Positions 15,586 through 47,146 of a stretch of DNA of 64,000 bases are shown here, piece after piece. The position numbers and the translations under genes are program-made. The notes under the pieces are model-generated. The model made no database searches. It was given only the letters and a program-made list of their open reading frames with translations, and was not told where the DNA came from. Source of the DNA: Clostridium sp. 12(A). Lineage in GTDB: Bacteria > Bacillota > Clostridia > Lachnospirales > Lachnospiraceae. How positions within the stretch are numbered: position 1 is the stretch's first letter; each line of letters starts with the position of its first letter. The stretch spans positions 1,984,001-2,048,000 of the forward strand of contig JAGI01000002.1 of assembly GCA_000526575.1 (NCBI GenBank). The letters are read 5' to 3'.

Positions 15586-16743
15586 TTATCTGCCAAATAC
15601 ATCGGTAAAGGCATCCAGTGTTCTGTAATAGGAAGCCTTAGGAGTATTTAAGTTAGAGTGGAGTAATGGATTCTTATCACGTCTCCAGGAAACGTCATCA
15701 GAAAGTCCCCACCAGGTAAAGCCTGTAATTTTACCGCCCGATTTTTTAATTTCGTTTACGGATTTCATGATATCGTATACATATGTAGCCTGCGCCTGCT
15801 CAGAACTTGCTCCGGCATCAAATTCAGTAATCTGAATTTCTAAGCCTGCATTAGCAAATTTCGTATATGCCTGCTTAAAGTAAGATGCACTTGGGAAAGA
15901 TGTTTCTAAGTGAGCCTGACCACCAACACCATTACAGATTTTCTTCTCTGCATTGATGAAATTAATCATTTTTACAATATTGTCAGCTTCCATATACTCA
16001 TTATAATCATTATAGAATAAGCTGACTTTATCGGTAAGTTTGAAATAGCTTAATGTTTCATTGGCATAACGGAATGCATCTTTAACAAACTGAGGACTGG
16101 TTGTTACGCCGCCATAGATGCTGACCCAACCGGTGCCACCTGGGGAGTGAAGATACTCATTTACCACATCCCATGCGTAAACAACGCTGCCGTACTGGCT
16201 TGTGTAAACGTGATTCATCACAGTCTTAATATAGAATTCCATACGTGCATTCATTACAGACTGGCTTACAAAGCCGGTTCCGCCATTGTAATTGGTTTTA
16301 AAAAACCAGTTTGGTGTCTGGCCGTGCCATACAAGAGTATGACCACGCAGTCCTAAATTATTTTCATAACAAATCTTTAAAACCTTGTCCACTGTGCTGA
16401 AATTGATCTTCGGAACGGTAGACTCTGTATAATTACTAGGAATATAGTATCCCAGTGATTTTGCTTCTGCTACTGAAATCAGAGTCGGTGAACCGCCAAG
16501 CATGGCGTCCGGCTTCATCTCATTCTCAAGGGTGACACTGTTGTATCTTTGTTTAATGACATTTAAGGTCTGTTGGTTCTGGAGCTGATATAAATTTACG
16601 CAGGTACCTACCCGACCGTATTTGGCTCCATACGTATTCAGCAGAGTCTGATCTGCCGTTGCTGCCTGAGTAACTCCTAATGACGATAAGGTAAGCGCCA
16701 TTGCAGAAATCACTGTCAAAATCTTTTTCACTGACTTTTTCAT
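15586..16743 (-). CDS. Secreted endo-1,4-beta-xylanase, GH10
   Basis: The 385-residue protein has a Sec signal peptide with a likely cut after TQAATA (around residue 28), followed by a single GH10 catalytic domain. Motifs are VTLENEMKPD (about 70-79), GHTLVWHGQTPNWF, WDVVNE with acid/base E196, and ITEFD with nucleophile E307. It would cut xylan backbones outside the cell. No carbohydrate-binding module or anchor is present, so it is probably released. The ATG at 16743 follows AAGGGGG. No xylan-uptake genes are beside it. Confidence 0.93.
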   Translation of the reverse strand: MKKSVKKILTVISAMALTLSSLGVTQAATADQTLLNTYGAKYGRVGTCVNLYQLQNQQTLNVIKQRYNSVTLENEMKPDAMLGGSPTLISVAEAKSLGYYIPSNYTESTVPKINFSTVDKVLKICYENNLGLRGHTLVWHGQTPNWFFKTNYNGGTGFVSQSVMNARMEFYIKTVMNHVYTSQYGSVVYAWDVVNEYLHSPGGTGWVSIYGGVTTSPQFVKDAFRYANETLSYFKLTDKVSLFYNDYNEYMEADNIVKMINFINAEKKICNGVGGQAHLETSFPSASYFKQAYTKFANAGLEIQITEFDAGASSEQAQATYVYDIMKSVNEIKKSGGKITGFTWWGLSDDVSWRRDKNPLLHSNLNTPKASYYRTLDAFTDVFGR

Positions 16744-17127
16744 TGTATTACCCCCTTATGTATAATTGGTTAACTGAAAGGAATCCTTGCCGGTCGTAAA
16801 AAACAGATATCGTGGTACCAACATCGAACCAAGTTCCCCCCCCTTCCATTCTCCCTTTTTACGTTACCAGAACAAAAAACTCCTTTTCCTTGATTCATAG
16901 CTAAAAATAGAATCATATTTCTTCTATCTCTAGCTATGTGGTCATAAAGACAATACTAATGTAACACGTTATGCATCTTTCCCAGTAAAAATGTAAAAAA
17001 TCCGATACTGTTCGTCATATTTTCTTATAAAACCGCAAAAATTACATCTAAAATTCGATTTTTTTCTATTTATCACATATAAAATGCATTTATTGAAGAT
17101 TCTCCAATTTGGCCTCTCCGATAAAGG
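16744..17127. other. Intergenic region upstream of the xylanase
   Basis: This 384-nt stretch holds the xylanase 5' leader. It has an uninterrupted run of eight C (16836-16843; eight G on the coding strand) and AT-rich sequence with no confident promoter or reading frame. TAGCTA repeats (near 16890 and 16931) could form a weak hairpin. Confidence 0.4.
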
Positions 17128-34197: not shown

Positions 34198-34821
34198 TTA
34201 CCCCCCTAGGGTCACATCCTGTCTGGAATACCATTCTACAGCATCATAAATATGCTGCGGTCTGAAATCAGGCCAGTAATCATCTACAATGTACATGTCT
34301 GAATAGACCGATTGAACGGGTAAAAAACCAGACAACCTTCTCCGTCCGCCCCAGCGGATCACCAAATCAATTCTTGAAACATCAGAGGTCTTTAACTGAG
34401 GTCCTATGGCTCCATCCTGAAGCCCTAGATCCCACTCCCAGCTATAGTTTATGAGAAAATTAATTTTCATGCCTCCTTCACCAAATCTGGATCTGGTGGT
34501 ATAGGGCTTTAATCTCTCAGGAAACATGGCTGATGATGTTTTTCCCAGTACCAGAAGCTCTGCGTCTTCTTTTGATAATCTCTCTACCGCTTTGATACAT
34601 GCTTCTGAGAACGCCTCCCGCTGTGTGGTGGGACGCTTGGTGTTATCCGCAGTAAAGCCGTAAAAGGTCATTTCTTCAATTCCCATATCTTTACAGATAT
34701 AATATAGGTCCATTCCCGGAGAAATTCCATTATCATATCCGTCTTCTTTTTTCATTCCCTGCTCCAGTGCCCAGCGCCGGTTTCCATCAGGTATGATTCC
34801 AATGTGCTTTGGAATTCTCAT
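34198..34821 (-). CDS. Divergent cis-prenyltransferase (UppS-like)
   Basis: The 207-residue protein contains recognisable UPP-synthase blocks: KHIGIIPDGNRRWA near the start (catalytic aspartate D12) and GFTADNTKRP, then RIDLVIRWGGRRRLSGFLP and YWPDF near the end. It is about 40 residues shorter than housekeeping UppS, has IPDGNRR where UppS has IMDGNGR, and shows SDMYIVDD in place of the usual AELYF segment. It is probably a paralogue making a different short cis-prenyl chain, not the cell-wall enzyme. ATG 34821 follows AAGGAGG. Confidence 0.75.
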   Translation of the reverse strand: MRIPKHIGIIPDGNRRWALEQGMKKEDGYDNGISPGMDLYYICKDMGIEEMTFYGFTADNTKRPTTQREAFSEACIKAVERLSKEDAELLVLGKTSSAMFPERLKPYTTRSRFGEGGMKINFLINYSWEWDLGLQDGAIGPQLKTSDVSRIDLVIRWGGRRRLSGFLPVQSVYSDMYIVDDYWPDFRPQHIYDAVEWYSRQDVTLGG

Positions 34822-34920: not shown

Positions 34921-35061
34921 CTATTTCTTAAACTGCTTTAGCTCTGCCGGCATCTTAGGCTGATGGTATATGTACATGCATCTGCTTTCTGCTGCCAGCT
35001 CTAAAGACTTTCTAGCCAGCTTCTCCATGAATTTTGCTGTATTGTTTGTTTTACTTTTCAT
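34921..35061 (-). CDS. agrD: AgrD-like cyclic peptide pheromone precursor
   Basis: This 46-residue gene is too short for routine calling. The peptide has an amphipathic basic N-terminus (MKSKTNNTAKFMEKLARKS), then a core with cysteine C28 followed by four residues (MYIY). Next is a C-terminal tail HQPKMPAELKQFKK. That order is the same as in staphylococcal AgrD, where a Cys-plus-four ring is followed by a PxEL-containing tail removed by AgrB. The predicted signal is a five-residue thiolactone, Cys-Met-Tyr-Ile-Tyr, with an N-terminal exocyclic tail of unknown length. ATG 35061 follows GGAGG. AgrA-, AgrC- and AgrB-like genes lie 0.8-3.4 kb away on the other strand. Confidence 0.87.
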   Translation of the reverse strand: MKSKTNNTAKFMEKLARKSLELAAESRCMYIYHQPKMPAELKQFKK

Positions 35062-35097
35062 AGTAACTACCTCCATCATATTCTATAAGATGGGTTC

Positions 35098-35146
35098 ATT
35101 ATAGTATCTTGGTACAAAAAATATATCACAATGTAATAATAACGGT
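35098..35146 (-). promoter_or_regulatory. Candidate agrD promoter with weak -35 and a LytTR-like half-site
   Basis: On the minus strand TATAAT (35098-35103) lacks a good -35 box at the usual distance. About 35 nt further upstream lies ACCGTTATT (35138-35146), close to the LytTR/AgrA half-site pattern. This fits a promoter that needs activation by the AgrA-like regulator, but a second half-site at the expected spacing was not found. Confidence 0.35.
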
Positions 35147-35187
35147 ACTGCATGTAATTTTTTCCACCTATTACTTCAAAGAATGAA

Positions 35188-35496
35188 TTAACCTCTTTTT
35201 TTGATTTCATTCCGGTCTTTTGCAAAGATTATTAACAGCAAAAGGGTCAGACAAAGCAATATATTGATTAGATTAAACAGGGAAATCAAATTTTCCAGCA
35301 GAAATTCATTACTATATTGGAATTTAATTTCACTCCATTCTAAATAATTGGTAATGATAATCGTAATAATAAAATTTATATTGTAAATTTTTCTATCTGA
35401 CTTTATTAAAAAATCTTTATCAAAGATGGTAAAGAACAAATACGTGATTAAAATAAGCATCCCCACCGCAAGTAGTAAAAACAAATATAAATTCAA
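35188..35496 (-). CDS. Small membrane protein of unknown function in the agr locus
   Basis: The 102-residue protein has three hydrophobic segments (LFLLLAVGMLILITYLFF at the start, IINFIITIIITN-like middle, and LCLTLLLLIIFA near the end) and a basic tail. It starts at TTG 35496 behind GTGAGGTGA. It is not recognisable as a known family. It lies upstream of agrD in the same direction and between agrD and agrA, so it may be cotranscribed with the pheromone gene. Confidence 0.55.
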   Translation of the reverse strand: MNLYLFLLLAVGMLILITYLFFTIFDKDFLIKSDRKIYNINFIITIIITNYLEWSEIKFQYSNEFLLENLISLFNLINILLCLTLLLLIIFAKDRNEIKKRG

Positions 35497-35833
35497 ATAG
35501 CATCACCTCACTTCCATCTGTAATAATATGTCAGATTGTGCTTCTGCTTTGCAGAGCAATACGAAAATATAACATTTCCCTTACAAAATACTTAACTTGT
35601 TGAAATTACGAGGTTATTTGTAATTTTTCCTTATTCCATTTCTCTCATTTTTTATTCATACTATAGCTAATACTTCTATACAAAATAAAACAATTATATA
35701 GTATAATATATGTTGTTTGTTACCATATTTTTCGGGATATACCCGGAAAATCATGCCGATTACAAAGCACACCCCCTTGATGCTTGGCAAGTAATGGAAA
35801 CTGTTGTAAAAACTAAATTAAGGAAGTGAGAAT
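35497..35833. other. Divergent control region between the small membrane gene and agrA
   Basis: This 337-nt AT-rich stretch must hold the agrA-C-B promoter. TATAAT occurs at about 35701-35706. A stem TTTTTCGGG/CCCGGAAAA with a 5-nt loop lies near 35730-35752 in the presumed leader, without a following T-run. Confidence 0.4.
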
Positions 35834-36571
35834 ATGTTACGAGTCGCAATTTGTGATGATGATTTTCTGTTCACAGGTATGTTAGAAAAAACATTAAGAG
35901 CTGAAGCTGAAGCTAATGGAATTGAAATAGAAATCGATGTATTTTTTGATGGTGTTATGCTTGAAAAATATATCCGCCAGGGAAACATATTTGACCTCAT
36001 ATATCTGGATATTGAAATGTCCCAGCAAAACGGAATTGAAGCTGCCCGCCATATCAGAGAGACCGATAAATCGGTATTATTAATTTATATCTCCGGGTAT
36101 GAGCAGTACTTAAAAGAGTTATTTGAAGTAGAGCCATTCCGTTTCCTGTCAAAGCCTTTGGATCATTCGAAATTCTCCCAGTATTTTCATGAAGCTTACC
36201 AGAGGATCAGCGAAAATAACGTTTATTATCAGTTTAACTTTAATAAAGAGATCAAAAAGGTCGCCCTAAAGGATGTTATTTATTTTGAAAGCCGGAACCG
36301 GATCATACATATTTATCTTAATAATGGTGAAGAGGAATTTTTCTACGGAAAGTTAAATGACGTAGAAAAAGATCTAAAGGAAATCAACCAGCGATACTTA
36401 AGAATCCATCAGTCTTATCTGGTAAATTATGATTACGTAAGAAAGATGAATTTCTCCAATCTGGTCATTGAAAATAACGGTGAGCAGATTACACTTCAGA
36501 TCAGCGAGGACAGGCAGAAAAAGATAAGGATGCAGTTATGTGATCTGGCAAGCAGAAAGGCAGGTGTCTGA
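35834..36571 (+). CDS. agrA: AgrA-like response regulator, LytTR family
   Basis: The 245-residue protein has an N-terminal receiver domain (acidic D8-D10, phosphoacceptor D59 in LIYLDIEM, conserved lysine in FLSKPLD) and a C-terminal LytTR DNA-binding domain (VALKDVIYFESRNRIIHIY, YLRIHQSYLVNYDYV). It is the transcription factor of the quorum-sensing circuit. ATG 35834 follows AAGGAAGTGAG. The next gene, agrC, starts 5 nt after its stop. Confidence 0.9.
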   Translation: MLRVAICDDDFLFTGMLEKTLRAEAEANGIEIEIDVFFDGVMLEKYIRQGNIFDLIYLDIEMSQQNGIEAARHIRETDKSVLLIYISGYEQYLKELFEVEPFRFLSKPLDHSKFSQYFHEAYQRISENNVYYQFNFNKEIKKVALKDVIYFESRNRIIHIYLNNGEEEFFYGKLNDVEKDLKEINQRYLRIHQSYLVNYDYVRKMNFSNLVIENNGEQITLQISEDRQKKIRMQLCDLASRKAGV

Positions 36572-36575
36572 TCCT

Positions 36576-37841
36576 GTGAATATGCTTTCTACTGCCATAG
36601 TAAGCCCGTTTCTTGCACTTTTTTATATCCTGGTCATAAGAAAATGTATCCATGCTTTTTTTCTTCCTACTCCCTTAAAACTACCTAATTACCTGGTCTG
36701 GATCGCCTATTTTCTTTTTCAGGTATACGTTGGCATGGGAGAACCGCTTTCACCGGTCATTACATTACTGTTAAACATGTTTTTTGTATTTTTAGTCACC
36801 AGCAGCGCTCATTCGGAAAGCTTAAGAAAGTGTTCCATCTTTTCATTTCTCATCTGTGCGATCTGGATGCTGGTGGAGATCATTGTCCACATGATCTTAT
36901 ATATGCTGAATTTTGATGATAACGCAGGACTTTCAGGAAACATTATTTCCAAGATTTTAATGCTTGTTTTTGCAATCATCACAGGCAACTGCCTTCAGCA
37001 GAGAAGTATCACCGATATCTCCTTTCGGTATATGGCTATCCTTTTTATTGTGCCGGCAGGAAGCATCTACATCATGCATAACATCTTTGTAATCAGCAAT
37101 CAATCCAGTGACGAATTATTATTTTCTTTTATTTCAGGCATTTTACTTTTATTTATTAATTATGTGATTTTTGAGGTATTTGAGTCCCTGGCCCAGAATA
37201 CGGATTACCAGAAAAAGACCCTGCTTTATGAGCAGCAGTTGGACCTTTGCAATCAGCAGGCAAAGGAAAGGGAAGTTCAGGACGCTGAGTTAAGAATGCT
37301 TCGTCACGATATCAAACAGCACCTTATCTGCCTGTTAGGAATGGTAAATGCTAATAAAAATGAAGAAGCTGTCCATTACTTAACAGCCCTGCTGGAAAAC
37401 GGTACCTCAAGGAAAATCCATGAAATCTCACGCAGCGGAAACATCGTGGTAGATTCTCTGGTGAATTATAAGTGCTCTGTGGCTCAAAAGGAGCACATTG
37501 AATTTAACGCCAATATTTTTATACCTCCTGTTCTCCCATTCCAGAATGGGAACCTTACCATTATTCTTGGAAACCTTCTGGAAAATGCCCTGAACGCTTG
37601 CCGTCATATCCAAAACGGAAAACGAATGATTGGAATTCAAATGACTTATCAGAAGGAAATCCTCTCCATCGTGGTTTGGAATACCTTAGAAGATTCCTCA
37701 AAAGATTCCCCATCAAAGCATGTTATGGGTATGCTTTCCATTGAACAGGCCGTTGCCACTTATAACGGAGAAGTGATAACAGAGACAGAAGGTAACATTT
37801 TTAAGGCCGCCGTCATCCTTTATGAGGGCGGAGAAACATGA
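36576..37841 (+). CDS. agrC: AgrC-like sensor histidine kinase
   Basis: The protein is about 421 residues. Six or seven membrane segments fill the first 200 residues, as in pheromone receptors. The kinase part has LRHDIKQHLICLLGM with the phospho-accepting histidine, and an HATPase domain of the GHKL type (ILGNLLENALNACR). I start at GTG 36576 behind AAAGGCAGG; ATG 36582 is an alternative. It should detect the cyclic peptide made from agrD and phosphorylate AgrA. Confidence 0.88.
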   Translation: MNMLSTAIVSPFLALFYILVIRKCIHAFFLPTPLKLPNYLVWIAYFLFQVYVGMGEPLSPVITLLLNMFFVFLVTSSAHSESLRKCSIFSFLICAIWMLVEIIVHMILYMLNFDDNAGLSGNIISKILMLVFAIITGNCLQQRSITDISFRYMAILFIVPAGSIYIMHNIFVISNQSSDELLFSFISGILLLFINYVIFEVFESLAQNTDYQKKTLLYEQQLDLCNQQAKEREVQDAELRMLRHDIKQHLICLLGMVNANKNEEAVHYLTALLENGTSRKIHEISRSGNIVVDSLVNYKCSVAQKEHIEFNANIFIPPVLPFQNGNLTIILGNLLENALNACRHIQNGKRMIGIQMTYQKEILSIVVWNTLEDSSKDSPSKHVMGMLSIEQAVATYNGEVITETEGNIFKAAVILYEGGET

Positions 37842-37890
37842 CAAAAGAGTTCAAATCTTTTTTCCTACAATTAAAGCAGGAGGTTGGCTG

Positions 37891-38460
37891 ATGGAACGGC
37901 TATCCATTGTATTTACAAATTACATTATGAAAAAAGGAGTCATTCCCAAAGAGAACTACGATATTTACCTTTACGGATTTCAAAGCTTTTTAGAACTGTT
38001 TCTCAATATTATTTGCAGCGTCATCATCGCCGTTGTGCTGCATATGGAAATCGAATGTCTCCTGTTTTTCTTATTTTTTATTCCTCTCCGTTCCTTTAAT
38101 GGAGGACTTCATCTGGAATCCTATTATTCCTGCCTGGTTTTCTCCTGTATGACCATGACGGCGATTTTGTTCCTTGTAAAGTATATTCATTTAAGTGCCC
38201 CCGTTTCTTTTATCCTATTTCTTGTTTTATTGACAGCTATTAAACTTACCGGATCCTATAACCATCCAAACCGACCAGTGGATGAGGAGGAGAATCAAGA
38301 ATTTGTACGAAAAACAAATCTTACCTTCTTACTCAGCTTCCTGGCTGCATTGGGGTTTCTAATGCTTCAATGGGACCGGTACCTTTTACTCCTGGCATTA
38401 ACCTATCTTCTTGTCTTTATCACATTGGTGATTTCTAAATTCAACAGGAAAACGAAATAA
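37891..38460 (+). CDS. agrB: AgrB-like pheromone-processing membrane protease
   Basis: The 189-residue membrane protein has the AgrB pattern. PLRSFNGGLHLESYYSCLVFS contains the catalytic histidine (HLES) and cysteine (SCL) in the family's R-x-x-x-GG-x-H arrangement, and NHPNRPVDEEENQ follows. It would remove the AgrD tail and form the thiolactone. I start at ATG 37891 behind GCAGGAGG, 49 nt after agrC. Gene order A-C-B with D on the opposite strand differs from the classic B-D-C-A. Confidence 0.88.
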   Translation: MERLSIVFTNYIMKKGVIPKENYDIYLYGFQSFLELFLNIICSVIIAVVLHMEIECLLFFLFFIPLRSFNGGLHLESYYSCLVFSCMTMTAILFLVKYIHLSAPVSFILFLVLLTAIKLTGSYNHPNRPVDEEENQEFVRKTNLTFLLSFLAALGFLMLQWDRYLLLLALTYLLVFITLVISKFNRKTK

Positions 38461-38466
38461 TCAGGA

Positions 38467-38519
38467 AAAGGGAAGGAAATCCTTGTAACCGGTATGTTAC
38501 AATTTCTTTCCCTTTTTTT
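38467..38519. terminator. Shared terminator between agrB and the holin gene
   Basis: AAAGGGAAGGAAAT pairs with ATTTCTTTCCCTTT, with an inner TTGTAAC/GTTACAA stem, followed by a T-run on the plus strand. The holin gene ends inside it from the other side. Confidence 0.8.
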
Positions 38520-38973
38520 CTATGGTGCCTTGCATTTCGGTCAATACCTTTTTTAAAAAGTCCGGAAGATTGGCCCCCATCCGCCCTGCATTTTCTAAAA
38601 TAGAAATGAGCTCATTCATGATCAGCCATATAGATACCAGCAGACCAAATATTGTTTTATGTTCAAATTTAATGCCTAATTCTGATGTAAATTTATAAAT
38701 AATGTAATCGGTGCAGATTGCCACAAATATGATGAATATGTAGCTTGCCTTTTTATAAATGCCTAACAGGCTTTTTTTACTGTTCCAACCATATTGCCTG
38801 TTATTGGGATGATCAAGAGCCTCCTTTTTTGATGCCAGCATACCGGAAAGATAATCAATGATCATCAACAAGGTTAATAAAAATACAGTTGGTATTAACA
38901 AATCAAATTGATCCATGACCCACGCACCTATTGCCCCCATCGTGCCCTTTTCTACAAATATTTTTTTATCCAT
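38497..38973 (-). CDS. TcdE/UtxA-like holin (phage holin family 4-1 type)
   Basis: The protein is about 158 residues with three membrane segments: residues about 23-45 (LLIPTVFLLTLLMIIDYLSGMLAS), 80-100, and 110-130. The pairing of IDYLSGMLASKKEA with NSKKSLLGIYKKASYI is typical of the toxin-secretion/phage-lysis holin family that includes C. difficile TcdE. ATG 38973 follows AAGGAGATTAAGC. There is no phage context and no endolysin beside it; instead it lies 42 nt behind a TcdR-sized sigma factor gene, so it is probably a dedicated release holin. Confidence 0.82.
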   Translation of the reverse strand: MDKKIFVEKGTMGAIGAWVMDQFDLLIPTVFLLTLLMIIDYLSGMLASKKEALDHPNNRQYGWNSKKSLLGIYKKASYIFIIFVAICTDYIIYKFTSELGIKFEHKTIFGLLVSIWLIMNELISILENAGRMGANLPDFLKKVLTEMQGTIEKKGKKL

Positions 38974-39015
38974 GCTTAATCTCCTTCCCAATTGATTTGT
39001 TATGTAATGTGGTTC

Positions 39016-39555
39016 CTACTTAAAATATTTCTCTTTTAACAGGTTATAAAAATTTTTTCTGACCCGGTGAACGTATTGACGGGACACCAGATTCTTTTCT
39101 GCAATGACAGCATCGGACTCGTCCCTAAAAACAATGTCGCAAAGAATATGGTACTGTTTTCCCTCCTGCTTCCCCATCAATCCTTTTAAATCCTCCAGAA
39201 AGACACAATCTTCAAATTCCGATTGATCCATATCCATGTTTGTAAAGAAATCATCTTCCATTACCATCTCTCTGTCAAAATGCAGCTTACTCTTTTTGTA
39301 CAATTCTAAAAATCTGTTCTTCAATGCTCTGCTTAGAAAGTAAATACATTGCCCCTCTTCCTGATAATACCCCATGGAATTAACTGCCTCCAAAAGACAA
39401 AGTACGAATTCTGAATGCATGTCCTCTTTTTCGTCCTTATACAAAAGACGAACATATTTGCTTATAAGCGGTTCCATTTTATCTGCAATCAGTAAGAATT
39501 TCTCTTTGTTCCCATCTTTATATTCCTTTATTAGTTTTTGAATACTATCTCCCAT
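39016..39555 (-). CDS. TcdR/UviA-type alternative sigma factor
   Basis: The 179-residue protein has a sigma region 2-like N-terminal part (MEPLISKYVRLLYKDEKEDMHSEFVLCLLEAV) and a region 4-like helix-turn-helix at the C-terminus (DAVIAEKNLVSRQYVHRVRKNFYNLLKEK; quoted key residues VSRQYVHRVRK). Its size matches the group of TcdR, BotR, TetR and UviA (about 170-185 residues), sigma factors for toxin or bacteriocin genes in clostridia. The gene has an AGGAGGG site and is preceded by a TTTACA/CTTTTT element like the promoters this group recognises, suggesting autoregulation. Gene and holin form one operon. Confidence 0.78.
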   Translation of the reverse strand: MGDSIQKLIKEYKDGNKEKFLLIADKMEPLISKYVRLLYKDEKEDMHSEFVLCLLEAVNSMGYYQEEGQCIYFLSRALKNRFLELYKKSKLHFDREMVMEDDFFTNMDMDQSEFEDCVFLEDLKGLMGKQEGKQYHILCDIVFRDESDAVIAEKNLVSRQYVHRVRKNFYNLLKEKYFK

Positions 39556-40142: not shown

Positions 40143-40895
40143 TTATAATGACAATTTTGACAGATCGATTTTACTCAGTGGAATGTTTGGTTCCCCCTCC
40201 TTGATTCGTATAGTGATATCCTCATAATTGGCATCCAACATGACCAAGGGGACTTTTTCATTTTCTGACAGATCAGATATATTAAAAATCTTTCCAAACT
40301 CTCTGTAAGTGGTATCTTCTTCATTGACGGCTGCCATGGTAGGATTATAATCATCGTAGAAGCCTGTCACGTATTTACCATCCTTATAGGTTAAGCATAC
40401 ATACCCGGACCCACTGGTTCCATTGCTGACTAGAAAGAGGCTGTTTCTTCTATAATATATATTATTAATGGAATACCAGCCTTCCGGCTCATATAAATCA
40501 ATCACCTTTTCAGCCTTGTTATTTTGATATGTAAATATACTAATAGATACGGAATCACCTAATATTAATTCCGGTATGCCGTCATTATTAAAATCGTGAA
40601 GGCTTACGTAGGCCCAACGGTCAGAACCATTTCCTTCCCTTAAGCCATATGGATCGACTAAATATTCTTTTGCATAAGTTATTATGTCTTTATACGATTG
40701 TTGCCAGCCATTATCAACCGAAGATTTCTCCGATTTTTTATCGTCGGATTCCATTGTTTCTTCCTTTGCATCCTTTTGAATATGACTTTGACTTTCAAGT
40801 TTCACATTATCACTTTGAACCTTGGCGGTCCGACAGCCTGCTATCCCCGATATTGTAAAAAATGATATTGCAAGTAACATGAATCTCCTTCTCAA
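40143..40895 (-). CDS. Lipoprotein with FG-GAP/EF-hand-like calcium motif
   Basis: The protein is about 250 residues. It has a lipoprotein signal ending GIAGC and a polar linker rich in Lys, Glu and Ser. A globular part follows, with HDFNNDGIPELILGD, a DxNxDGxxE calcium-binding loop as in FG-GAP/VCBS repeats. The best start is TTG 40895 (MRRRFMLLAISFF) because it supplies the basic N-terminus of a signal peptide and follows GGGGGGCAGAG; ATG 40880 behind AAGGAG is an alternative. Function is unknown; it is a surface lipoprotein. Confidence 0.7.
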   Translation of the reverse strand: MRRRFMLLAISFFTISGIAGCRTAKVQSDNVKLESQSHIQKDAKEETMESDDKKSEKSSVDNGWQQSYKDIITYAKEYLVDPYGLREGNGSDRWAYVSLHDFNNDGIPELILGDSVSISIFTYQNNKAEKVIDLYEPEGWYSINNIYYRRNSLFLVSNGTSGSGYVCLTYKDGKYVTGFYDDYNPTMAAVNEEDTTYREFGKIFNISDLSENEKVPLVMLDANYEDITIRIKEGEPNIPLSKIDLSKLSL

Positions 40896-41250
40896 TTCTC
40901 TGCCCCCCAAATCTATTGTTGTTCCATTTTAACCTTTTAAAAACTGCTTTAAAAAATTAAAGTACGAACTAACTTAATATTATAGCAAAAATCCTACTTG
41001 ATATTTATTTCGTGTAATTAAACCGTACTTTATTGTAATTATTTGGCTGTAATTATTTGGTTGCAATTATTCCGTAGTAATTATCAATTAATTGTTACTT
41101 CAAATATCGGGCTAAAACAGTACCTTGATACATGATTAAAAAATCTGGTGAATCCACTATATATATAAGAATTATTTATTGAATGAGCTTAGAATTAAAC
41201 ATAATCAAAAAAAATTAATCATGATCCATGGAAATGCACTTTGGGTGAAA
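40896..41250. other. Intergenic region with short AT-rich tandem repeats
   Basis: Around 41034-41090 four degenerate copies of a 13-15-nt unit follow each other: TGTAATTATTTGGC, TGTAATTATTTGGT, TGCAATTATTCCG and TAGTAATTATCAAT. No gene is supported in this stretch. Confidence 0.6.
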
Positions 41251-44521: not shown

Positions 44522-47146
44522 TTAATTATTCAATGCTGCCTGTGCTGCTGCCAGTCTGGCAATAGGTACACGGAATGGAGAACAGGAAACGTAATCCAGA
44601 CCAATCTTATGGCAGAACTCCACAGAGGAAGGATCTCCACCGTGCTCGCCGCAGATACCTACATGCATATCAGGACGTACTGATTTACCTAGCTTTACAG
44701 CAGTCTCCATCAGCTTACCTACACCAATCTGATCCAGTTTTGCAAATGGGTCATTCTCAAAAATCTTTGTGTTATAATAAGCATTTAAGAATTTGCCGGC
44801 ATCATCTCTGGAGAAGCCATAGGTCATCTGAGTTAAATCGTTAGTTCCAAAGCAGAAGAACTCTGCATCCTTTGCAATGTCATCTGCCATAAGAGCAGCT
44901 CTTGGAATCTCGATCATAGTACCTACTTCATATTTTAAGCTGCTTCCTGCTGCTGCAATCTCTGCATCCGCTGTTTCCACAACAATGTTCTTAACAAACT
45001 TAAGCTCTTTTTCATCACAGATAAGTGGAATCATAATTTCAGGGCAAACGTTCCAGTCTGGATGAGACTTCTGAACATTGATGGCAGCACGGATGACTGC
45101 TTTTGTCTGCATTCTTGCGATTTCAGGATATGTAACGGTCAAACGGCAGCCTCTGTGTCCCATCATTGGGTTGAACTCATGGAGGGAATTGATAATATTC
45201 TTAATCTGTGCCACGGTTTTACCCTGAGCATCGGCAAGCTTTTTAATATCATCTTCATCCGTTGGAACGAACTCATGAAGAGGTGGATCCAGGAAACGAA
45301 TGGTAACAGGGTTTCCTTCCAATGCCTCATACAGTGCTTCAAAATCTCCCTGCTGAACCGGAAGGATTTTTTCAAGTGCTGCTTCTCTTTCCTCTACGGT
45401 ATCAGAACAGATCATCTCACGGAATGCATCAATTCTGTCACCTTCAAAGAACATGTGCTCGGTTCTGCAAAGACCGATGCCCTCTGCTCCAAGCTCTCTT
45501 GCCTTTCTGGCATCAGATGGAGTATCTGCATTGGTTCTTACTTTCAATTTTCTATATTTGTCGGCCCATGCCATGATTCTTCCGAACTCACCTACAATGG
45601 CTGCATCCATGGTTGGAATGATTCCGTCATAGATCTTACCGGTAGATCCGTCAATGGATAACCAGTCGCCTTCATGGAACTCTTTGCCTGCCAGTGTAAA
45701 TTTCTTATTTTCTTCGTCCATAGCGATTTCAGAACAGCCGGAAACACAGCAGGTTCCCATTCCACGGGCAACAACGGCTGCATGAGAGGTCATACCGCCT
45801 CGTACCGTTAAGATACCCTGAGCTGCCTTCATGCCTTCGATATCTTCTGGTGATGTCTCAAGACGCACCAAAATAACCTTCTCACCTTTTTCTTTCCATT
45901 CCTTTGCATCATCGGCAGTGAATACAATCTTACCGCAAGCGGCTCCGGGAGATGCTGCAAGAGCTTTCCCGATTGGCTCTGTACTCTTTAATGCCTCGCT
46001 GTCAAATTGTGGGTGGAGAAGGGTATCTAAGTTTCTTGGGTCAATCATCTTGACTGCCTTTTCCTCTGAAATCATTCCTTCATCAACCAGATCACAGGCA
46101 ATGGTTAAAGCAGCCTTAGCGGTCCGCTTTCCGTTTCTGGTCTGAAGCATATATAATTTCTTATCTTCAATGGTGAATTCCATGTCCTGCATGTCGCGGT
46201 AATGGTCTTCCAGCTTGTTACAGATTTCTACGAATTTGTCGTAAGCTTCCGGCAATTCATCTTTCAACTGATCGATCTTTCTTGGAGTACGGACACCTGC
46301 AACTACGTCCTCACCCTGAGCATTCATTAAGAACTCACCCATAAGGTGCTTTTCTCCGGTCGCCGGGTTACGGGTAAATGCAACACCAGTTCCTGATGTC
46401 TCGCCCATATTTCCAAATACCATCATCTGAACATTGACTGCAGTTCCCCATGAATATGGAATATCATTGTCGCGCCTGTAAATGTTGGCCCGCGGATTAT
46501 CCCAGGAACGGAATACTGCTTTTACTGCTTCCATAAGCTGAGTTTTTGGATCATCGGGGAAATCCTCACCGATTTTTGCTTTGTACTCATCACGGAATAA
46601 GTAAGCCAGTCTCTTTAAGTCCTCAGCCGTTAAATCAACGTCTTCTGTGATTCCTTTTTCCTTTTTCACCTTGTCGATTAATTCTTCAAAATATTTCTTT
46701 CCGACTTCCATAACAACGTCAGAAAACATCTGGATAAATCTACGGTAGCAGTCCCAGGCCCATCTTGGATTTGATGATTTTGCAGCCAGAACCTCAACTA
46801 CCTCTTCATTTAAGCCTAGATTTAAGATGGTGTCCATCATTCCCGGCATGGACGCTCTTGCACCGGAACGAACAGAAACCAGGAGAGGATTTTCTTTGTC
46901 ACCAAATTTTTTCCCTGCAATCTCCTCCATCTTAACGATGTATTCCATGATTTGACCCATGATCTCATCATTGATTTTTTCGCCGTCTTCATAATACTGG
47001 GTACAGGCTTCTGTTGTAATGGTAAACCCCTGAGGTACTGGAAGACCCAGATTCGTCATCTCTGCCAGATTGGCCCCCTTGCCCCCTAAGAGATTCTTCA
47101 TCTCAGCATTGCCCTCGGTAAACAGATAAACCCATTTTTTTGCCAT
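44522..47146 (-). CDS. ppdK: Pyruvate, phosphate dikinase
   Basis: The 874-residue protein is full length. It has KGANLAEMTNLGLPVPQGF at the N-terminal nucleotide domain, SVRSGARASMPGMMDT, the phosphohistidine loop GGMTSHAAVVARGMG near residue 455, and the PEP-domain end GICGEHGGDPSS with the catalytic cysteine. It interconverts pyruvate, ATP and Pi with PEP, AMP and PPi. In clostridia it often runs glycolytically, using PPi; the membrane pyrophosphatase at 17-19 kb is a second PPi enzyme in this window. ATG 47146 follows GAGGAGG. Confidence 0.96.
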   Translation of the reverse strand: MAKKWVYLFTEGNAEMKNLLGGKGANLAEMTNLGLPVPQGFTITTEACTQYYEDGEKINDEIMGQIMEYIVKMEEIAGKKFGDKENPLLVSVRSGARASMPGMMDTILNLGLNEEVVEVLAAKSSNPRWAWDCYRRFIQMFSDVVMEVGKKYFEELIDKVKKEKGITEDVDLTAEDLKRLAYLFRDEYKAKIGEDFPDDPKTQLMEAVKAVFRSWDNPRANIYRRDNDIPYSWGTAVNVQMMVFGNMGETSGTGVAFTRNPATGEKHLMGEFLMNAQGEDVVAGVRTPRKIDQLKDELPEAYDKFVEICNKLEDHYRDMQDMEFTIEDKKLYMLQTRNGKRTAKAALTIACDLVDEGMISEEKAVKMIDPRNLDTLLHPQFDSEALKSTEPIGKALAASPGAACGKIVFTADDAKEWKEKGEKVILVRLETSPEDIEGMKAAQGILTVRGGMTSHAAVVARGMGTCCVSGCSEIAMDEENKKFTLAGKEFHEGDWLSIDGSTGKIYDGIIPTMDAAIVGEFGRIMAWADKYRKLKVRTNADTPSDARKARELGAEGIGLCRTEHMFFEGDRIDAFREMICSDTVEEREAALEKILPVQQGDFEALYEALEGNPVTIRFLDPPLHEFVPTDEDDIKKLADAQGKTVAQIKNIINSLHEFNPMMGHRGCRLTVTYPEIARMQTKAVIRAAINVQKSHPDWNVCPEIMIPLICDEKELKFVKNIVVETADAEIAAAGSSLKYEVGTMIEIPRAALMADDIAKDAEFFCFGTNDLTQMTYGFSRDDAGKFLNAYYNTKIFENDPFAKLDQIGVGKLMETAVKLGKSVRPDMHVGICGEHGGDPSSVEFCHKIGLDYVSCSPFRVPIARLAAAQAALNN

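Follow-up and report, generated by a model that had tools for sequence, protein, structure and literature searches.

How is an agr quorum-sensing system wired when its pheromone gene lies apart from, and on the strand opposite to, the genes for its sensor, regulator and processor? The question is raised by positions 34921-38460 of a window of Clostridium sp. 12(A) DNA (64,000 nucleotides, the whole stretch that was analyzed; genus presumably Lacrimispora). A first-pass annotation of the bare sequence had described here a short minus-strand gene with the plan of the pheromone precursor AgrD, split off and inverted relative to plus-strand homologues of AgrA, AgrC and AgrB, and grouped with a 102-residue membrane protein (here M102). 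These points were borne out by the analysis reported here. At a probability of roughly three in four, the region is read as a complete agr-type cyclic-peptide quorum-sensing system whose signal gene is driven by a separate promoter, not shared with the other three genes, a reading that includes a candidate AgrA operator and a candidate output gene. The locus is a variant of agr rather than a new system, since other clostridia have been found to carry their agr genes in altered order or apart from one another.

The pheromone gene and its plus-strand partners

The features that make up the proposed system are as follows.

34921-35061, minus strand: agrD, 46-amino acid (aa) pheromone precursor with predicted ring CMYIY (Cys28-Tyr32) and tail HQPKMPAELKQFKK, assigned by its TIGR04223 match and by conservation in 15 genomes
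35188-35496, minus strand: M102, predicted three-helix membrane protein of 102 aa, with a TTG start, found in 15 of 25 genus genomes
35834-36571, plus strand: agrA, response regulator with a LytTR DNA-binding domain (PF00072, 48.6 bits; PF04397, 55.6 bits)
36576-37841, plus strand: agrC, GHKL sensor histidine kinase (PF14501, 47.2 bits), its start uncertain within 36540-36582
37891-38460, plus strand: agrB, AgrD-processing membrane peptidase of 189 aa (PF04647, 118.8 bits), with invariant His74 and Cys81

In a profile search the agrD frame matched the TIGR04223 quorum_AgrD family with 43.3 bits against a cut-off of 19. Its ATG is preceded by a Shine-Dalgarno sequence (GGAGGTAG), and an earlier start is excluded because an in-frame stop lies directly upstream of this ATG in two relatives (G007 and G011). 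The small frame is not degraded in relatives: it is open, and the ring cysteine kept, in 15/15 orthologous loci, each time with this cysteine four residues ahead of a charged tail (CMYIY, then HQPKMP). The whole segment CMYIYHQPKMP is identical in all 15, with synonymous differences in 8 of its 11 codons; the AgrD of genome G001 (CMYVLHQPKQP), only 56% identical and set in another layout, was left out of this count. Beyond MP the tail varies, so that the PAEL motif pointed out in the first-pass annotation is present in 6 of the 15 loci but not fully conserved, two loci having PTDL and seven being one residue shorter. The five-membered CMYIY ring is predicted by analogy with known AgrD proteins, which serve as the guide both to the placing of cysteine and tail and to the residues that form the ring. 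The mature peptide would be a thiolactone of the same form as the staphylococcal autoinducing peptide (AIP), a five-membered ring with a charged tail after it in the precursor. A literature search on the ring letters found nothing.

Homologues of AgrA, AgrC and AgrB follow in this order on the plus strand, and their domains were confirmed as Response_reg plus LytTR, GHKL HATPase and PF04647, respectively, with the PF14501, PF00072 and PF04397 matches above their cut-offs. AgrB was aligned in 13 rows (11 of the 15 loci together with G001 and G002); its start is more likely at 37891 (189 aa) than at 37822, a Met standing at that place in 13/13 rows, and H74 and C81, presumably the catalytic pair, are invariant in the same 13. 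A whole-genome search placed no other AgrD above the family cut-off near this AgrB.

The gene order UppS-like (minus), agrD (minus), M102 (minus), agrA (plus), agrC (plus), agrB (plus) was found in 15 of the 25 genus genomes examined, and the conserved block extends from agrD to a lipoprotein gene at 40143-40910. Among these genomes G099 is of the same species as the window, and G021 is 93.8-99.6% identical to it from AgrD to a sigma-factor-like gene within the block.

A shared 31-bp element and its candidate targets

Aligned promoters of agrD and M102 share a 31-bp element on the same strand, upstream of both genes in 15/15 genomes. Its pattern is a AAAAATTAC-like box, a GCAG-like box, CG and then an A/T run ending in AC. 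A third copy lies elsewhere in the window, ahead of a xylanase gene.

35132-35162, minus strand: copy of the 31-bp element ahead of agrD, a proposed AgrA operator
35098-35103, minus strand: TATAAT, -10 box of the agrD promoter, at offset 57 in 15/15 loci
35598-35628, minus strand: copy of the 31-bp element within the promoter region from which M102 and agrA diverge, likewise a proposed AgrA operator
16992-17022, minus strand: third copy of the element (27.7 bits), 249 nt upstream of the GH10 gene, with TACATT at offset 57
15586-16743, minus strand: GH10 xylanase (PF00331, 214.7 bits), candidate output gene, with a signal-peptide-like N-terminus as read from the translation

In the M102 promoter the -10-like box is TATAAT at offset 52 in 10 loci and TTATAT or TATATT at offsets 54-55 in five. 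A weight matrix built from 14 distinct sites of the agrD and M102 promoters was run on sequences outside this training set. It matched between agrA and agrD in G001 (29.6 bits, TATTCT at offset 57) and between agrC and agrD in G048, from another genus and with the order A-C-D-B (26.6 bits, TAAAGT at offset 57), so that agrD is preceded by the element in 2 of 3 rearranged relatives. Ten Markov shuffles of the window peaked at 9.8 bits and five shuffles of 464 kb at 16.5 bits; in 1.264 Mb of the genome (27%, window included) nothing besides the three window sites exceeded 14.5 bits. Since agrD has the element ahead of it in each of three gene arrangements, selection seems to preserve the promoter more than the order of the genes. 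When seven sites were compared with themselves, the match peaked at an offset of 21 bp (0.54), with values of 0.17-0.33 at offsets 5-20, 22 and 23; 21 bases is the two-turn spacing expected for LytTR regulators. In Staphylococcus aureus, AgrA is reported to bind a pair of direct repeats immediately upstream of its promoters, according to the available part of PMC4227749, an arrangement that the operator proposed here would share. We infer from these features that the 31-bp element is an AgrA operator.

The third copy is kept upstream of the orthologous GH10 gene in 5/5 genomes for which this gene was fetched (the window's own, G099, G021, G007 and G011). This suggests that the xylanase is an AgrA target and that the agr system may also control a secreted xylan-degrading enzyme.

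Several observations weigh against this interpretation of the element and its targets. The element was not found at the agr locus of G002 or at the other five AgrD loci of this genome, and the two agr elements within one genome are no more alike than shuffles (20 of 31 positions in the window against a maximum of 21 in 40 shuffles; 21 against 21 in G019). The half-sites agree at only 4 to 7 of 10 positions, an ungapped 9-mer direct-repeat scan did not single out the element, and promoter-like or terminator-like sites were not in excess in a simple scan. Being trained on only two promoters, and in related genomes, the matrix is narrow. Flanks of 16 to 37 kb from G023, G003, G018 and G001 contained no GH10 gene and no site, so the output link rests on five close genomes. 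The predicted structure of M102, one of the proposed targets, is poor (predicted local distance difference test 59.3, predicted template modelling score 0.32), which ruled out a fold search. A strict pattern of the divergent element, run over the whole genome, returned only the site itself, with one match also in the backwards control; this result is uninformative on targets, the pattern being so narrow that it misses the agrD and xylanase copies.

The alternative that survives best, which we nevertheless hold to be unlikely, accepts the agr system as real and assigns the element to another regulator of agrD, M102 and the xylanase, for example one responding to growth phase or sugar, with AgrA acting elsewhere. 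A xylanase would be a natural target of a sugar regulator, the absence of the element from the six agr loci just mentioned fits this explanation, and binding by AgrA is an interpretation of the sites; on the other hand, a sugar or growth-phase regulator would not readily account for an element that stands ahead of agrD across three gene arrangements and as far as another genus, for the 21-bp repeat offset, or for the lack of a further strong copy in the 27% of the genome scanned.

If AgrA does act through the element, the circuit would run as follows. AgrB would cut and cyclize AgrD into a thiolactone around Cys-Met-Tyr-Ile-Tyr, which AgrC would sense and answer by phosphorylating AgrA. The agrA, agrC and agrB genes form one plus-strand run, probably an A-C-B operon, with agrD and M102 encoded divergently. 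Phosphorylated AgrA would bind the 31-bp elements upstream of agrD, M102 and the GH10 gene and, presumably, activate rather than repress them, giving positive feedback on the signal and M102 and a xylanase output. A-C-B lie on the opposite side of the divergent region, so the feedback would probably reach the signal and M102 rather than the whole set. For M102 itself a role in processing, immunity or receptor tuning is proposed. A bolder version of this scheme, which we put forward only tentatively, treats the locus as an agr architecture of its own. Transcription of the signal would be uncoupled from that of its sensor and processor, AgrA would feed back only on the pheromone and on the new component M102, and the system would be dedicated to the output of a secreted xylanase, which in a xylan-degrading anaerobe would be a public good under quorum control. 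The locus offers a specific candidate operator, a proposed circuit and one candidate output gene, through which agr control of plant-fibre breakdown is open to direct testing.

Place among agr loci of the genome, the family and the literature

The genome (4.6 Mb) holds six AgrD frames above the family cut-off, only one of them at this locus, and seven AgrB proteins. D and B are neighbours on one strand at each of the remaining AgrD loci (5/5), and the seventh AgrB (C2:739731) has no AgrD above the cut-off nearby. The strain thus encodes six different predicted rings of Cys plus four residues, CGYIY, CMYWS, CMFAH, CMGIY, CFFIG and, here, CMYIY, with boundaries placed by prediction in each case. 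With seven AgrB proteins available, this AgrD might be processed by, or signal through, another agr locus while the adjoining A-C-B genes serve a different peptide, and the available part of PMC8748961 proposes a shared AgrB for Clostridium autoethanogenum; this explanation is given little credence, as opposed to a self-contained locus, in view of the co-occurrence of AgrD, M102, A, C and B in 15/15 genomes with the layout and of the lack of a second AgrD above the cut-off at the locus. That the locus is a decaying, non-functional rearrangement is very improbable: the AgrA match of G005 is split over two frames and the agr genes of G001 (outside the 15) are spread over about 15 kb, but agrA and agrC give single full-length matches in the other loci (in G016 the contig end falls inside agrB), the codons of the ring differ by synonymous changes alone and the two promoters are kept.

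The complete, self-contained system favoured here departs from the usual same-strand adjacency of agrD and agrB, a common though not defining trait, the two genes lying on opposite strands and 2.9 kb apart. In a family sample of 110 genomes, 34 of which had AgrD (68 in total), AgrD lay within 400 bp of AgrB on the same strand in 42/68 cases, on the same strand at 0.4-5 kb in 8/68 and on the opposite strand in 4/68, the window's locus included, with no AgrB within 20 kb in 14/68 (13 of these in one genome). These distances were counted with 91 of the 97 AgrB rows, the six weakest, none of them on a contig with a listed AgrD, being omitted. On this count, separation of AgrD is a minority state and not unique. 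An AgrD opposite in strand to its nearest AgrB was found in three other genera (G172 contig C18, G143 contig C6 and G025 contig C23; loci L088-L090), and the 31-bp element was not found in these three stretches (0/3). A further search of genome contigs with AgrB, which may not have covered the window's own genome, returned one locus.

The nine stretches around the UppS-like gene taken from genomes without the layout show no AgrD, AgrC, AgrB, M102, holin or sigma gene (9/9), two of them having a weak AgrA-like match (24% identity). In three of these nine (G001, G009 and G012) the counterpart of the gene at 44522-47146 lies 1 to 3 kb from the UppS-like gene, as opposed to about 9.7 kb in the window, and for this reason the agr block looks like an insertion.

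Two relatives carry agr genes in other forms. In G114, a genome of the family, 13 AgrD frames exceed the cut-off and only two AgrB were found, on contigs without a listed AgrD (AgrD, L091-L101; AgrB, L102-L103); an AgrC- or AgrA-like match is present in 10 of the 11 stretches carrying these AgrD, a picture that suggests one or two processing enzymes serving many pheromone-receptor pairs. In G001 (L075, 4770-19601) the agr genes are in two parts. An XRE regulator gene, agrA and agrD lie beside genes for a lanthipeptide-type synthetase (DUF4135 plus LANC_like) and a C39 peptidase ABC transporter. The opposite strand carries, at a distance of about 12 kb, a copy of the XRE gene, a shortened copy of agrA (read by eye from the DNA), agrC and agrB. 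Duplication and subsequent complementary loss appear to have produced this arrangement. For Clostridium acetobutylicum, the available part of PMC10301443 describes an agr effector that is LanM-like.

Compared with staphylococcal agr (agrBDCA, with its AIP thiolactone), the locus has the same four protein families; it differs in that the signal gene lies opposite A-C-B with its own promoter, so that feedback would act on D and M102 instead of the whole operon. In the agrACDB locus of Clostridioides difficile, as far as the part of PMC3754575 that was available goes, A, C and B have the same relative order as here, whereas D stands, by the locus name, between C and B and not outside and inverted. 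The available part of PMC8748961 describes two non-classical systems in C. autoethanogenum, Agr 1 and Agr 2, with D-C-B and with D-C lacking AgrB, both with predicted five-membered rings; this portion describes no adjoining response regulator gene and no inverted AgrD with a small membrane protein. In Clostridium thermocellum, AgrD likewise lies apart from AgrB, and a cyclic pentapeptide was detected by mass spectrometry and linked to xylose exposure; unlike the thiolactone predicted here, that ring is a lactone through serine, and its agr partners are not identified in the part of PMC5322536 available. In Enterococcus, fsrD lies inside fsrB, according to the accessible portion of PMC3673130. 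The rearrangement described in the first-pass annotation is therefore correct as to layout and conserved, but less surprising than it first appeared, reordered or separated agr genes having been described in other clostridia.

Literature searches, which returned partial texts, brought up no closely matching work on divergent or opposite-strand agr order and no operator, M102 or xylanase link like those of this locus; the matches for AgrD together with xylanase included work on C. thermocellum. The portion seen of a paper on phage agr (PMC3901668) contains nothing on gene order, and the excerpts returned for this genus included no agr work, the sole match for Lacrimispora and AgrD being a species description with a single mention. 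Judged from the DNA, what appears to be new here is the 31-bp element with its 21-bp repeat spacing before agrD, M102 and the GH10 xylanase gene.

M102 and the neighbouring genes

M102 is present in all 15 genomes with this agr layout and in none of the other 10 genus genomes, and its TTG start codon has a Shine-Dalgarno sequence ahead of it, both in the window and in 14/14 other loci. No confident relative was found in 249 other genomes of the family, the one weak partial match (E 0.005) lying inside a 642-codon frame, and no solved relative was found by sequence. The possibility that M102 is a relic of AgrB was rejected for lack of profile similarity (hhalign probability 1.1).

A UppS-like gene (34198-34821) adjoins agrD and was considered as a possible part of the agr system, for instance as a prenyltransferase with AgrD as its substrate. 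It was rejected as such, being present in 24 of the 25 genus genomes and standing, in the nine stretches without the layout described above, free of AgrD, AgrC, AgrB and M102. By eye its product, presumably a core prenyltransferase, is without some residues that we take to be conserved in UppS.

Beyond agrB the conserved block holds three further genes.

38497-38991, minus strand: holin-like protein, conserved neighbour convergent with agrB (TIGR01593, 47.8 bits)
39016-39555, minus strand: sigma-factor-like protein with an SRQ motif, conserved neighbour with a conserved TTTACA promoter element
40143-40910, minus strand: putative lipoprotein, conserved neighbour in 13 of the 14 fetched loci, the contig of the 14th (L060) ending first

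The holin-like gene adjoins agrB in 14 of the 15 loci, the contig of the 15th ending first. A role as an agr-bound gene was rejected, as relatives occur in G013 (63% identical) and G006 (46%), both without this layout, at a second place in G018 (44%) and 2.5 kb from AgrB in G002 (61%).

The sigma-factor-like protein gave weak sigma-factor matches only against curated models, those of NCBIfam being below their cut-offs. The available part of PMC4031146 names two marks of group 5 sigma factors of the TcdR/UviA type, SRQ in region 4.2 of the protein and the promoter element TTTACA. Both have counterparts at this gene: SRQ is present in the translation, its placement in region 4.2 being presumed, and GTTTACA lies ahead of the gene in 14/14 aligned loci. 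Read from the sigma-factor-like gene into the holin-like gene, positions 38497-39555 would form a UviAB-like pair beside the agr locus.

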